Origin: Actinomycetes bacterium
GTDB lineage: Bacteria > Actinomycetota > Acidimicrobiia > Acidimicrobiales > RAAP-2
Direction of reading: 5' to 3'
Assembly: GCA_021791635.1 (NCBI GenBank)
Contig: JAJYWF010000006.1
Span: forward strand, 1-50,483
Length of the DNA stretch: 50,483 bases
Under the pieces are notes generated by a model, which was not told the DNA's origin, ran no database searches, and worked only from the letters and a program-made list of their open reading frames with translations. The translations under genes were made by a program, and so were the position numbers. Positions 30,125 through 35,712 of the stretch are shown one piece after another (position 1 is the first letter of the stretch; the number at the start of each line of letters is the position of its first letter).

Positions 30125-30871
30125 GTGCCGATCCCGGTGGTGGGTCGCAGGAGCCGGCCGAGCCCGGACGCCATGACGCTGGCCGAACACCTGGCCGAGC
30201 TCCGTCGTCGCATGATCATCGCGGTGGCCGCCTTCGTCGTCGCTGCCACCGTGGCCGCCGTCTTCTACAACTGGTTCCTCGGGGTGCTCCAGCATCCCTA
30301 CTGCCACGTACGTCCCCATGCCTGCCGCTTCTATGTGACCGGACCTCTCGATCCCCTGAGCCTCCGGGTGGAGATGGCCGCCTTCGGTGGACTGGTCCTG
30401 GCCTCGCCGGTCATCTTGTGGCAGATGTGGAGGTTCATCACCCCTGGGCTCAGGGATCAAGAGAAGCGCTATGTCGTACCGTTCGTGCTCGTGTCCGTGG
30501 TGCTCTTCCTCTCGGGGTGCGCGACCGCCTACCTCATTTTCCCCCACGCTCTGGAGTTCCTCATCTCTGTCGGTGGCCCCCACCTCTTCGAGATCCTCAG
30601 CCCCAACAGCTACCTGAACCTGATCTTGCTGATGATGGTCCTGTTCGGGCTGTCCTTCGAGTTCCCGGTCGTGCTCGTGGCCTTGGAGCTGGTCCGGGTG
30701 GTCACCCCCGCCCAGCTCCTCCACTGGTGGCGCTGGTCGGTCATCGCCATCACCGCAGCCGCCGCCATCTTCACTCCTAGCTCCGATCCGTTCTCGATGC
30801 TGGCGCTGGCGGTCCCGCTGGTCGTCTTCTACTTCGCTGCCATCGGCGTCGGCAAGCTGCTGGGACGGTGA
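30125..30871 (+). CDS. tatC: twin-arginine translocase TatC subunit
   Basis: A 248-residue six-span membrane receptor for folded, twin-arginine-signalled proteins. MTLAEHLAELRRRMIIAVAAF is the TatC N-terminal signature, with FYVTGPLDPLSLRVEMA, WRFITPGLRDQEKRY and FGLSFEFPVVLV following. The GTG at 30125 follows the tatA stop directly; the methionine at 30173 (MTLAEHL) is an alternative. It overlaps helY by GTGA (30868-30871). The tatA-tatC-helY order is the same as in mycobacteria. Confidence 0.95.
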   Translation: MPIPVVGRRSRPSPDAMTLAEHLAELRRRMIIAVAAFVVAATVAAVFYNWFLGVLQHPYCHVRPHACRFYVTGPLDPLSLRVEMAAFGGLVLASPVILWQMWRFITPGLRDQEKRYVVPFVLVSVVLFLSGCATAYLIFPHALEFLISVGGPHLFEILSPNSYLNLILLMMVLFGLSFEFPVVLVALELVRVVTPAQLLHWWRWSVIAITAAAAIFTPSSDPFSMLALAVPLVVFYFAAIGVGKLLGR

Positions 30872-33171
30872 CCACCGACCCGGCACAGTTCCGCGATCCC
30901 TTCGTGAGGAGCCTCCGCTTCACCCCCGACCGCTTCCAGCTCGAGTCGATGGACTCGCTGGACCGGGGCCGCTCGGTGCTGGTCTCGGCCCCGACTGGAT
31001 CTGGCAAGACCCTGGTCGCCTCCTATGCAGTGCACCGCGCCCTGTCGGCTGGCGGCAAGGCCTTCTACACCACCCCCCTCAAGGCTCTCTCCAACCAGAA
31101 GCACCGCGAGCTGGTCTCAGAGCACGGGGCCGGTCGAGTTGGCATCCTGACCGGAGACGTCTCGGTACGGCCGTCGGCGCCGGTGGTCGTCATGACCACC
31201 GAAGTGCTCCGCAACATGCTGCTCGCCGGCTCAGACCTCCTCGGGACACTTCACACCGTCGTCCTCGACGAGGTCCACTACCTCCAGGATCCCTACCGGG
31301 GAGGGGTGTGGGAGGAGATCCTCGTGCTCAGTCCACGGGCCATCACGTTCGTCTGCCTCTCGGCCACCGTGGGCAATGCCGACGAGCTCGGCGACTGGCT
31401 TCGTTCCGTCCGTGGACCGACCGACGTGATCGTCGAGCGGGCCCGACCGGTGGCCCTCCGGCATCACATGGCCATCTCCGACACCTCCCGCCATGAGCCC
31501 GGCACTCTTCCGGTCACGTTCCTGCCGCTGTTGGACGGCGGCCGGCCGGCCGGGGCCGGGCTCCGGGTCGACCAGGCGGTGCAGCGCAGCATCCGGCGTC
31601 GTCCGAAGGGCGGGTGGAGCTCCAAGCGCCCGGCAGAGGGCCTCCCGTTCCGCTCTCCCCGGCGAAGTGAGCTGCTCTTGGCTCTCGAGGACGAGGACAG
31701 GCTCCCAGCCATCGTGTTCATCTTCAGCCGCGCCGCGTGTGACGACGCCGTTCGGCAGTGCCTCCACGACGGCCTCCGACTCACCGACCCGGCCCGCAGG
31801 GCCGCGGTCCGCCGGATCGCCGAAGAACGCACCGAAGTCCTGAGCGACGACGATCTGAGCGTGCTGGGCTACTCGGAGTGGCTCGAGGGGCTCGAAGCCG
31901 GGATCACCTCCCACCACGCCGGCCTGGTCCCAGCCTTTCGCGAGACCGTCGAGGAGTGCTTCTCCGCCGGACTGCTCCAGGTGGTGTTCGCCACCGAGAC
32001 GCTCTCCCTCGGCATCAACATGCCCGCTCGTTCCGTGGTCATCGAACGCTTCTCCAAGTACGGGGCCACCGGCCGGGCGACGTTGAGCGCGGGCGAGTAC
32101 ACCCAGCTCACCGGTCGGGCCGGACGCCGAGGCCTCGACGCCGAAGGGCACGCCGTGGTGGTGTGGTCCCCTGAGACCAGCTTCGCCGAAGTGGCCAGGG
32201 TGGCCACGGCATCTCCCTCCGACCTCCGATCCGTGTTCCGCCCGTCGTACAACTTGGCGGTGAACCTGGTCCGGCGCTTCGACCGGTCCACGGCCACGGC
32301 TCTGCTTCGCCAGTCGTTCGCCCAGTGGCAGGCCAGCATCCGCCTGGCCAAGTCCTCCGGCAGGCCATCGGGTCCCGATCAGCTGGTGGACCAGCTGGCC
32401 CGGCGAATGGCCGTCCTCGAAGAGCTGCGCTACGTCGACGGTTGGCGTCTCACCGACTCGGGAGATCGGCTGTCGCGTGTCTACCACGATGCCGATCTCT
32501 TGGTGGCCGAGACGTTGAACAGCACACTCCTCGCCGGCGCCGAGCCGGCGATCCTGGCCGGGGTGCTGTCAGCCCTGGTCTTCGAGCCCCGACGGGCTCG
32601 TCGCAGCTTCGTGCACGGGCGCGGAGTCCGTACCCCCCGAGGTCGCAGCCCAAGACGTCCCGGTCCACCGCCCGCCAGGGGGTCGGTCGTCTCCCTCGGA
32701 ACCCCTGATCCCAGAGCCCGGACACCCGAGCCCCCCCGTACCGGCCGCGGCCACCGCTCCGGGGGCGACCGGCTCGGTGCCGGTCGCCGGGCCGATCTCG
32801 ACGCCCGCATGACCGCCTTGGAAGAACGTGCTGCGGCCGTCCGGGAGATCGAGACCGTCCACCTCGTGCCACCCCAGCGACGTCCCGAGAGAGGGCTGGC
32901 CGGAGCGGTCACCGCCTGGGCTCGCGGTGCACCGTTCCGGACGGCATTGGACCTGGCCGCCACCGACGTGGGTGAAGTGGCTCCCGGTGACTTCGTCCGC
33001 ATCGTCCGCCAGGTGGCGGACTTGGCCGACCAGGTATCCAAGGCCAGCGTGGACCCGGTGATCGCCGCGGCGGCATCGACCGCGGCCCATCTGGTCCAGC
33101 GGGACGTAGCGGCACCGGGGACCCAGGACCCGGTCGTGGCATCCGCGACCGGGGGCGCCGAGCGGTTCTAA
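30868..33171 (+). CDS. helY: Ski2-like DEVH-box RNA helicase HelY
   Basis: A 767-residue superfamily 2 helicase. Walker A APTGSGKT at 41-48, DEVH at 134-137, SAT in CLSATVGN and the motif VI QLTGRAGRRGLD are intact, with the long insert between domains seen in Ski2/Mtr4-like proteins (SRAACDDAV, TSHHAGLVPAFRETVEECF). The C-terminal part has an Arg/Pro/Gly-rich linker around 590-650 and a DSHCT-like end. It is shorter than mycobacterial HelY (about 900), mainly in the C-terminal region. The family is thought to act on RNA turnover. Confidence 0.9.
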   Translation: MTTDPAQFRDPFVRSLRFTPDRFQLESMDSLDRGRSVLVSAPTGSGKTLVASYAVHRALSAGGKAFYTTPLKALSNQKHRELVSEHGAGRVGILTGDVSVRPSAPVVVMTTEVLRNMLLAGSDLLGTLHTVVLDEVHYLQDPYRGGVWEEILVLSPRAITFVCLSATVGNADELGDWLRSVRGPTDVIVERARPVALRHHMAISDTSRHEPGTLPVTFLPLLDGGRPAGAGLRVDQAVQRSIRRRPKGGWSSKRPAEGLPFRSPRRSELLLALEDEDRLPAIVFIFSRAACDDAVRQCLHDGLRLTDPARRAAVRRIAEERTEVLSDDDLSVLGYSEWLEGLEAGITSHHAGLVPAFRETVEECFSAGLLQVVFATETLSLGINMPARSVVIERFSKYGATGRATLSAGEYTQLTGRAGRRGLDAEGHAVVVWSPETSFAEVARVATASPSDLRSVFRPSYNLAVNLVRRFDRSTATALLRQSFAQWQASIRLAKSSGRPSGPDQLVDQLARRMAVLEELRYVDGWRLTDSGDRLSRVYHDADLLVAETLNSTLLAGAEPAILAGVLSALVFEPRRARRSFVHGRGVRTPRGRSPRRPGPPPARGSVVSLGTPDPRARTPEPPRTGRGHRSGGDRLGAGRRADLDARMTALEERAAAVREIETVHLVPPQRRPERGLAGAVTAWARGAPFRTALDLAATDVGEVAPGDFVRIVRQVADLADQVSKASVDPVIAAAASTAAHLVQRDVAAPGTQDPVVASATGGAERF

Positions 33172-33183: not shown

Positions 33184-34872
33184 ATGCCCCCCTACGTGAG
33201 CGAGACCTTCACCGCCGAGGAGGCGGCCATCCTGCGCCGCTACGTCACGAACCTCGACCGTCCGGTGTTCGCCCTGGTCAACTTGCCTGAAGTGGTGAAA
33301 GGAGCCCTCTTCGCCCGCTATTCACGCTCATCGAAATCGCTCCGCCGCCTCTTCCTGGACGAGTTCGTCGGGGATCTGGATGTGTCGGGAGACGTGACCG
33401 TGGACGCCACGGTGGGCCTCCACCGGGCCCAGGAGCTCTACCGGCGGGTCTTCCTCGAGTATGGCGATGACTCGGTGGCCCAGCTCGGGGGCGTGCACCT
33501 GGCGTGCGAGCAGTCGTCGAACCTCCTGACCAAGGTGCTCGAGCGCAGCCGGCTGATGTCGTACCTGGAGCAGTCCACCCGCTACATCGGCTACGACAGC
33601 CGCCTGGCGACCGGTCACTACCGCTACTACCGCCCGCCCGAGATCCTCGATTCGTCCCTCGGCGCCCGCTACGTAGGGGACATGGACCGCATGTTCGACA
33701 CCTACGCCGACCTCCTGCCCCGGGTGCAGGCGTGGGTGGCCACCCACCATCCCCGTGACCCTGCCGACTCGGACTTCGTCCACCGCCAGGCGGTGCGGGC
33801 CAAGGCCCTCGACGCCGTGCGCGGCCTCCTCCCGTCAGCGGCGCTGTCCAACGTCGGAGTTTACGGCACTGGACAGTCCTACGAGCTGTTGCTCGTCCAC
33901 ATGCGGACGCACCCTCTCCCCGAGGCCCGCCAGTACGCGGAGCTGATGCTCGAAGAGCTGAGGAAGGTGATCCCGTCGTTCCTCGAGCGGGTCGACCGAC
34001 CGGATCGGGGAGGGGAGTGGTCGACCTACCTGGCGTCGACCCGTGAGGCAATGACCCGCACGACCGCTGATCTATGGCCGGACGCCGCCGGTGGTGCTCT
34101 GCTCCCGTCGGTCTCGAACGAGGTCGAGCCGACAGCGGTGTCGGGGGTGACGCTCTTGGACTTCGACCCCGACGGCGAGGACAAGGTCGTCGCCGCGGCG
34201 TGTTTCCCGTCTACGTCCCTCCCCGAGCCCGAGATCCTCCGCCGGGTCAGAGCCCTGGGCGCCGATGACCGGGTGCAGATCCTCAAGACGTACGTCGGCG
34301 ATCGCCGCAACCGCCGTCACCGACCTGGTCGGGCGTTCGAGCGCACGGGGTACCGCTTCGAGATCGTCTCGGACTACGGGGCGTTCCGTGACCTCCAGCG
34401 TCACCGCATGCTCACCGCCGAGTGGCAGGAGCTGACCACCGGGCTGGGCTGGGAGAGCTCGGAGGTCGTCGAAGAGGCCGGTCTGCTCGGGCCCTACACC
34501 GAGTCACTGGCCCGGTCCAAGGAGCTCCACGCCGCCCTCCTCACGCACTTCCCGGCCCAGGCGGCCTACGCCGTGGCCCTGGCCTTCAGGATCCGCTTCG
34601 TGCTCCAGATGAACGCCCGTGAGGCCATGCACGTCATCGAGCTCCGATCCGGCCCCCAGGGCCATCCGGCCTACCGACGAATTGCCCAGCAGCTTCATCG
34701 GGCCATCGACCAGACAGCGGGTCACCACGCCATCGCCGCGGCGATGGCCTACGTGGACCACCAAGACGTCACGCTCGAGCGGCTGGGCGCCGAGCGCCGG
34801 GCCGAAGCTCGCCGGTCGGTCAGCGGAGCAGGCGGCCAGACGGGAAATCCGCAACTGTCTGACCAGGGATAA
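33184..34872 (+). CDS. double-length ThyX (FAD-dependent thymidylate synthase) homologue
   Basis: A 562-residue protein made of two ThyX-like halves (normal ThyX is about 220-250). In half one, RSRLMSYLEQSTRY (121-134) aligns with the ThyX signature RHRxxSxNxxSxRY: the two Ser and the last Arg-Tyr are kept, but His and Asn are lost. Half two (about 330-540) has RHRMLTAEWQELTTG (406-420), keeping RHR but losing the Ser pair, and keeps the NAR of the nucleotide-binding part at 477-479 (QMNAREAMHVIELR). Neither half alone has the whole canonical active site. It may be a diverged thymidylate synthase with composite sites or a protein with another flavin-linked role. No other thymidylate synthase is in the window. 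Confidence 0.72.
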   Translation: MPPYVSETFTAEEAAILRRYVTNLDRPVFALVNLPEVVKGALFARYSRSSKSLRRLFLDEFVGDLDVSGDVTVDATVGLHRAQELYRRVFLEYGDDSVAQLGGVHLACEQSSNLLTKVLERSRLMSYLEQSTRYIGYDSRLATGHYRYYRPPEILDSSLGARYVGDMDRMFDTYADLLPRVQAWVATHHPRDPADSDFVHRQAVRAKALDAVRGLLPSAALSNVGVYGTGQSYELLLVHMRTHPLPEARQYAELMLEELRKVIPSFLERVDRPDRGGEWSTYLASTREAMTRTTADLWPDAAGGALLPSVSNEVEPTAVSGVTLLDFDPDGEDKVVAAACFPSTSLPEPEILRRVRALGADDRVQILKTYVGDRRNRRHRPGRAFERTGYRFEIVSDYGAFRDLQRHRMLTAEWQELTTGLGWESSEVVEEAGLLGPYTESLARSKELHAALLTHFPAQAAYAVALAFRIRFVLQMNAREAMHVIELRSGPQGHPAYRRIAQQLHRAIDQTAGHHAIAAAMAYVDHQDVTLERLGAERRAEARRSVSGAGGQTGNPQLSDQG

Positions 34873-35140: not shown

Positions 35141-35206
35141 CGACATGACCTGCCCGGCAGCCCGAGCACGACCAGCCCGATAGGCCCAGCACGACCGTGA
35201 CGGTGC

Positions 35207-35234
35207 TTGACCGGCCAGCACCAGCGTCTATGCT
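35207..35234 (+). promoter_or_regulatory. promoter TTGACC-N16-TATGCT of the DUF4193 gene
   Basis: TTGACC at 35207-35212 and TATGCT at 35229-35234, 16 bases apart, is the best sigma-A consensus match in the window. Start near 35241 gives a leader of about 25 bases that includes the strong GGAAGGAAGG ribosome site. Confidence 0.6.
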
Positions 35235-35265
35235 CCCGCGTCACATCACCAGCGGGAAGGAAGGC

Positions 35266-35712
35266 ATGGCAGACGATCTGGACGACGTGGCGGTACCCGA
35301 CGACCTCGACGACGACGCCATCGTCCTCGAGGCGGTCGACGCCGATGAGGACCTCGACGAGGTCATCGAAGTAGACGGCATCGATGACGCCGACGAGGAT
35401 CTCGACCTCGAGGAAGACGGGGACACGGTGCGGCCCGTACCGGCCCGCTCGGACGAGGCCGAGGAGGAAGAGGACGAGGAGGAAGAGGACGAAGACGTCG
35501 AAGCCAGCCTCGACGTGATCCTCAAAGAGCGTCTGGTGGTCGAAGACGAACCCGAAGACGACGAGGTCGTCGACACCGAGGACCGCAGCGAAGGAGTCGA
35601 CCAGGTCCTCCCCAAGCAGCCCGGTGAATTCGTCTGTCGGTCATGCTTCCTGGTGAAGCACCCGAGCCAGCTGGCGGACAAGAAGAGGCTTCTTTGCCGA
35701 GACTGCGTCTGA
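35266..35712 (+). CDS. DUF4193 family protein
   Basis: A 148-residue, very acidic protein (long Asp/Glu runs in residues 1-105) ending in a zinc-ribbon-like module: LPKQPGEFVCRSCFLVKHP, then KKRLLCRDC, i.e. CxxC...CxxC. This C-terminal block matches DUF4193, a small actinobacterial family of unknown function. Most members are about 100 residues; the extra length here is the acidic N-terminus. The ATG at 35266 is chosen for the GGAAGGAAGG site directly before it. The strong promoter suggests high expression. Confidence 0.88.
   Translation: MADDLDDVAVPDDLDDDAIVLEAVDADEDLDEVIEVDGIDDADEDLDLEEDGDTVRPVPARSDEAEEEEDEEEEDEDVEASLDVILKERLVVEDEPEDDEVVDTEDRSEGVDQVLPKQPGEFVCRSCFLVKHPSQLADKKRLLCRDCV

Follow-up and report, generated by a model that had tools for sequence, protein, structure and literature searches.

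The window analysed here, a 50,483-nt stretch of contig JAJYWF010000006.1, comes from the draft genome of an Actinomycetes bacterium of the order Acidimicrobiales. One of its genes was read, from the letters alone, as encoding two flavin-dependent thymidylate synthase (ThyX) domains, each retaining a different part of the ThyX active-site signature. If each domain lacks what the other keeps, is the protein still a thymidylate synthase, and how would its active sites be assembled? We propose that the tandem is a functional flavin-dependent thymidylate synthase whose active sites are composite, acting as an obligate pseudo-heterodimer; on the comparisons presented below, we put the probability of this reading at about 0.82.

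A single reading frame encodes two ThyX domains

Pfam Thy1 matched the whole protein with an E-value of 2.1e-33, half 1 alone with 3.8e-19 (aa 81-265) and half 2 alone with 3.8e-12. Taken separately, each half passed the curated Thy1 cut-off of 24.8 bits (69.7 and 46.8 bits, respectively). An HMM of canonical ThyX built for this study also matched the two halves (E 1.2e-08 and 1.5e-06), and none of 2000 shuffles of the tandem protein scored better than E 0.45 against it, showing that these matches exceed chance. Profile-profile comparisons, for which the reference comprised 18 canonical ThyX proteins and the Thermotoga maritima enzyme, likewise matched both cores (Table 1). The presence of two ThyX domains in one uninterrupted 562-aa chain is therefore borne out, including when each half is searched by itself.

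The residues named in the sequence-only reading are all present: RSR 121-123, S126, S131-T-R133-Y134, RHR 406-408 and NAR 477-479. RHR occurs only in half 2, which also has NAR, and ExSxRY, with its preceding Ser, only in half 1; no single domain holds both motifs. RSR itself should not be taken for a relic of RHR kept by conservation: relatives mostly have WGR or RGR at this position and only R123 is fixed.

Table 1. Coordinates in the window of the tandem ThyX gene, its domains and its key residues (Tm, T. maritima ThyX).
Feature	Position	Strand	Remarks
Tandem ThyX gene	33184..34872	+	ORF with ATG start, 562 aa plus stop, 0 internal stops
Half 1 N-terminal SRS, aa 47-49 within FARYSRS	33322..33330	+	Invariant in alignment A2, at least 90% in A4
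Half 1 ThyX domain core, aa 77-271	33412..33996	+	hhalign to canonical ThyX, probability 99.2, E 1e-19
S97, at Tm T55 position	33472..33474	+	Ser in 57/57 bacterial, 11/11 Bacillus-type and 20/21 viral sequences
Degenerate RHR of half 1, R121 S122 R123	33544..33552	+	WGR/RGR in relatives
Half 1 active-site loop, E129-Q-S131-T-R133-Y134	33568..33585	+	Tm E86, S88, R90, Y91; subunit-C role
R213	33820..33822	+	Tm R147; retained in half 1 only
Q231, at Tm R165 position of half 1	33874..33876	+	Arg in most phage/Bacillus-type sequences and in L211
Half 2 ThyX domain core, aa 321-522	34144..34749	+	hhalign probability 99.0, E 3.6e-18
Basic motif RRHRPGRAFE, aa 377-386	34312..34341	+	Aligned near Tm 53-58; R383 at T55 position
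RHR 406-408	34399..34407	+	Tm R78-H79-R80; subunit-A role; R406 and H407 invariant in A4
NAR 477-479	34612..34620	+	Tm N163-A164-R165; subunit-B role; R479 in 57/57 of the bacterial lineage
R488	34645..34647	+	Tm R174, Mtb R199; subunit-A role; invariant in 89/89 tandems

The halves divide the active-site residues by subunit role

ThyX active sites are reportedly built from three monomers, as Leduc is said to have described in 2004. In the Mycobacterium tuberculosis enzyme (MtbFDTS), subunit A contributes the RHR motif (95-97) and Arg199 to a given site, subunit B contributes Ser71 and Arg190, and subunit C adds Arg87, Ser105, Arg107 and the lid Tyr108 (PMC6514825). We carried these roles over by residue spacing to T. 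maritima R78-80 and R174 (A), R165 (B), and S88, R90 and Y91 (C). RHR and ExSxRY are neighbours in the sequence, yet they come from different subunits of one site. Conversely, R174 lies about 95 residues from RHR, yet belongs to the same subunit.

Together, the two halves of the tandem supply the subunit-A substrate residues R406-R408 and R488 (corresponding to Tm R78, H79, R80 and R174) and the subunit-C substrate residues S131, R133 and Y134 (corresponding to Tm S88, R90 and Y91). Since RHR and the R174 equivalent stand together in half 2, and the S88, R90 and Y91 equivalents in half 1, the division as mapped tracks the subunit of origin in the Mtb site rather than the order of the sequence. 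Mutants of Tm S88, R90 and Y91 have lower activity and slow the dUMP-triggered step, R174 is proposed to activate N3 of dUMP, and R78 faces N1 of the flavin (PMC8316439; PMC11940539). An enzyme of this type thus needs both sets of residues.

In the proposed enzyme, half 2 would provide the FAD-phosphate/flavin side through RHR 406-408, along with the dUMP-activating arginine R488. Half 1 would provide the loop responsible for dUMP binding, acid catalysis and the lid (E129, S131, R133, Y134) plus R213. Using FAD, such a site would convert dUMP, CH2-THF and NADPH to dTMP and THF. Two chains would pair into a pseudo-tetramer resembling the ThyX tetramer, in which two composite sites would be complete and the other two potential pockets, lacking both sets, would be inactive for chemistry. 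Catalysis, quaternary structure and the number of sites (about two per dimer, not four) are inferred, and the pocket geometry is deduced from mapping the residues onto the published site description.

The second pair of pockets could alternatively still bind a nucleotide (NADPH, the FAD adenylate or dTMP) in a regulatory or structural role. R123, at the R80 position, is invariant in half 1 of the bacterial lineage, where the R174 position is also basic (R/H/K in 57/57), and half 2 keeps N477 and R479, so that a phosphate-binding shell could remain; moreover, NADP+ can occupy the FAD site of Mtb ThyX (PMC6514825). However, the R78 and H79 positions are mostly lost from half 1 and the S/R/Y loop from half 2, phage and Bacillus-type tandems have a degenerate triplet in half 1 where RHR would stand, and the residues that are kept may merely serve the active pocket in the subunit-B role. 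We therefore consider a nucleotide-binding second pocket unlikely.

The complementary split is conserved in all tandem homologues

The split was retained in 89/89 tandem homologues compared, down to about 21% identity. They come from Acidimicrobiales, other Actinomycetota, a Parabacteroides record, Bacillus-type plasmids and jumbo phages. The distant members include a Parabacteroides distasonis plasmid record, Euzebya, Miltoncostaea, and Paenibacillus and Bacillus plasmids; the viral ones include Tunturiibacter phage Tunturi_5, Vibrio phage BONAISHI, other Vibrio phages and IMG/VR contigs. Beyond Actinomycetota, the family is known here solely from plasmid, phage and viral records, and single-protein scans of the viral data returned only their own queries.

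Equivalents of Tm E86, S88, R90 and R147 are present in half 1, and of R78, H79 and R174 in half 2, in 100% of the 89 tandems; the Y91 equivalent of half 1 is missing only from two viral sequences. In a motif pattern test, 87 of the 89 fitted outright, while L064 and L211 held all required motifs plus an extra match, which we read as chance in L064 and as non-coding sequence upstream of the open frame in L211. Across 87 clade proteins, E129, S131, R133 and Y134 (half 1) and R406, H407 and R408 (half 2) are invariant, and most have WGR or RGR where half 1 would carry RHR. Alignment A4 (62 sequences, down to 21% identity) shows no variation at E109, S112, E120, E129, S131, R133, R213, L216, P217 and E247 in half 1, nor at R406, H407, Y462 and R488 in half 2. 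The E, S and R of the active-site loop do not vary in these 62 sequences or in the 89 tandems. The SRS of half 1, N-terminal of the stretch alignable to canonical ThyX, is common to nearly all tandem lineages. In the Bacillus-type lineage, RHNR replaces the RHR of half 2.

Each half by itself has an incomplete signature, as would an inactive or decaying duplicate. However, the reading frame is intact, identity across the order is mostly 62-75%, 175/562 positions are at least 98% conserved over 87 sequences, and the same complementary residues recur in all 89 tandems. A split conserved in this way is not decay, a reading to which we give almost no weight, and a pseudogene was rejected because the frame is intact and the residues are conserved in every lineage. 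Rather, the presence of RHR and R488 in half 2, and of E129, S131, R133 and Y134 in half 1, in every lineage fits one pocket built from two different halves. The composite site suggested by the sequence-only reading is thus supported by residue mapping on the published site.

The subunit-B role may be placed differently in two lineages

The bacterial lineage (57 sequences, the window included) keeps the N163 and R165 equivalents in half 2 (R479 is present in 57/57), and Arg occupies the T55 position of this half. Its half 1 has mostly Asp at H53 and mostly Gln at R165, so that its subunit-B side departs from textbook ThyX. The register of half 2 around H379 and the H53/T55 positions is less certain, as the alignment crosses a gap there. 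All 11 sequences of the Bacillus-type lineage have H53, Ser, N163 and R165 in half 1 and have lost R165 from half 2; the viral lineage (21 sequences) has a similar pattern, and the R479 position is mostly lost across phage and Bacillus-type sequences. S97 is probably the equivalent of Mtb S71 in the subunit-B role. One further tandem, L211, has H53, N163 and R165 in half 1 and N163 and R165 in half 2, as would an ancestral-like intermediate with subunit-B residues in both halves. L211 lies at G145:C1:268700-273000, in a genome with four Thy1 matches and thus probably two tandem genes. Two tandem ThyX genes, L202 and L203, also occur in G193, a genome outside the order.

Given D2 symmetry, and with roles A and C in different halves, only two placements are available for role B, and the two lineages look like one placement each. 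Role B would be filled by half 2 in the bacterial lineage (N477, R479, R383), and by half 1 in the phage and Bacillus-type lineages (H53, the T55-position Ser, N163 and R165 equivalents).

A tree built from 87 domains over 149 columns placed every half-1 domain in one clade and every half-2 domain in another, each with 100% bootstrap, and Bacillus-type tandems branched first within both clades. The simplest reading suggested by this tree, which must be qualified by its long branches and by the halves having been mapped separately, is one internal duplication or fusion that predates the split of the lineages and would have led to the obligate pseudo-heterodimer. A fuller scenario, to which we give slightly less than even odds, is that, after a single ancient ThyX duplication, half 2 took role A and half 1 took role C in every tandem, while role B went to half 2 in the bacterial lineage and to half 1 in the phage and Bacillus-type lineages, with L211 as an intermediate and the second pockets catalytically retired.

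The tandem is the only candidate dTMP-making enzyme found in most of the order

Family searches of the window genome (a draft of 2.46 Mb in 155 contigs, 95.7% complete) found no thyA, no single-domain thyX or other Thy1, no DHFR and no thymidine kinase; thymidylate kinase is present. The genome thus has the profile of ThyX-type dTMP metabolism, that is, no thyA and usually no DHFR. A redundant paralogue beside a canonical ThyX was rejected, as no other Thy1 was found, and the redundancy through a second thyA or thyX that the sequence-only reading had named as a possible refutation did not appear. Absences from a draft could be gaps, but the order-wide pattern, which includes one-contig genomes, argues against this.

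Thy1 was detected in 114 of 118 order genomes with at least 90% completeness, and at least two matches were present in 113 (two matches in 111 genomes, three in G043, four in G145). The only Thy1 frame of G119, the genome with one match, is just 221 aa long. ThyA matches were found in 4/118 genomes, two of them full length. DHFR was found in 1/59 order genomes and thymidine kinase in 16/59; the rarity of DHFR is expected of ThyX-type metabolism, which regenerates THF. The one DHFR genome carries thyA and DHFR side by side (G090:C8:48396-49669) as well as the tandem ThyX.

Two patterns tend to occur among genomes of the phylum sample: a single high-scoring Thy1 (frame mostly 220-480 aa) or a low-scoring pair, which in the listed cases shares a frame at least about 540 aa long. 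As we read the tables, few two-hit genomes also have a strong match to ThyA; the clearest case is G334, where it is in two pieces. In most of the order, the tandem seems to be the only dTMP-making enzyme found.

These data bear on whether the tandem is instead a diverged ThyX homologue acting on another substrate, as a UMP C5-methylase like PolB or on a hypermodified pyrimidine, with dTMP coming from elsewhere. Substrate-shifted homologues such as PolB do exist (PMC5003785), and the tandem scores below the NCBIfam thyX equivalog cut-off (TIGR02170, 47.2 vs 87.9 bits). However, searches of the window genome found neither a second thymidylate synthase nor a thymidine kinase, and most of the order gave the same result; moreover, the gene is kept in 60/61 relatives and alternates with single-domain ThyX across the phylum. 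A substrate change is thus very improbable, and the new role offered as an option in the sequence-only reading is disfavoured, since nothing else found in the window genome would make dTMP.

Genomic context

A helicase gene (30868-33171) ends 12 bp before the tandem start. Helicase matches were present in 77/80 relative loci, most of them ending close to the ThyX start. At about aa 570-640 (32575-32787), the helicase has an R/P/G-rich stretch that looks out of frame; no frameshift was seen, as the stretch aligns, with gaps, to the L054 protein in one frame. Downstream, positions 35197-35712 encode a small protein that is very acidic, ends in a CxxC-type C-terminus and may be of the DUF4193 type, with matches near ThyX in 63/80 loci. 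In phage Tunturi_5, the tandem adjoins a dCMP deaminase gene, with a dUTPase gene nearby. In the P. distasonis plasmid record (L107, NZ_OY725790.1), DHFR lies about 3 kb downstream of the tandem ThyX, among housekeeping-type neighbours.

Relation to known ThyX proteins

Each half of the tandem is a Thy1 domain like canonical ThyX (T. maritima TM0449, PDB 1kq4; M. tuberculosis ThyX, PDB 2af6/3gwc), and the halves jointly hold RHR, ExSxRY, NxR and the R174/R199 arginine. Whereas the canonical enzyme consists of one domain (about 220-260 aa) and assembles as a homotetramer with four identical sites, the tandem spreads these residues over two fused, non-equivalent domains, so that no more than two equivalent sites would be expected for every four domains.

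A PDB sequence search with the tandem returned no ThyX, the sole match being a chance-level ribosomal protein. The longest match to T. maritima ThyX was 270 aa, so that no tandem was seen among solved chains. The chain solved in PDB 6j61, a ThyX homologue, is 270 aa long and not a tandem; we take it to be Thermus thermophilus ThyX with an extra C-terminal domain.

Jumbo-phage tandems L110, L118 and L111 matched PHROG 36506 ('thymidylate synthase'), as did the window protein, weakly. Its profile length of 491 fits a tandem; the family is named as a whole, and no statement of two complementary halves was found for it. WP_009276148, WP_164711104 and WP_217924789 ('FAD-dependent thymidylate synthase'), 44-48% identical to the window protein, belong to the same tandem family under an automatically assigned name that appears to reflect homology only. 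Neither experimental or structural work on such tandems nor a description of a tandem ThyX was found in the open-access literature searched, including ThyX papers and a jumbo-phage review.

Significance

If the composite-site reading is right, most of a bacterial order and many other Actinomycetota would have the tandem as their only detected thymidylate synthase, and jumbo phages would use it too; yet it carries just an automatic name, and no solved structure was found. It would offer a natural case in which a homo-oligomeric interface enzyme has divided the active site over two fused copies, and in which an intermediate can be compared with two resolved outcomes. If the single-duplication scenario also holds, this would be a half-of-the-sites ThyX in which FAD binding is separated from dUMP binding and each role can be mutated one domain at a time. 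Since each subunit role would lie in its own domain, FAD-side and dUMP-side residues would be independently mutable, which a homotetramer does not allow.
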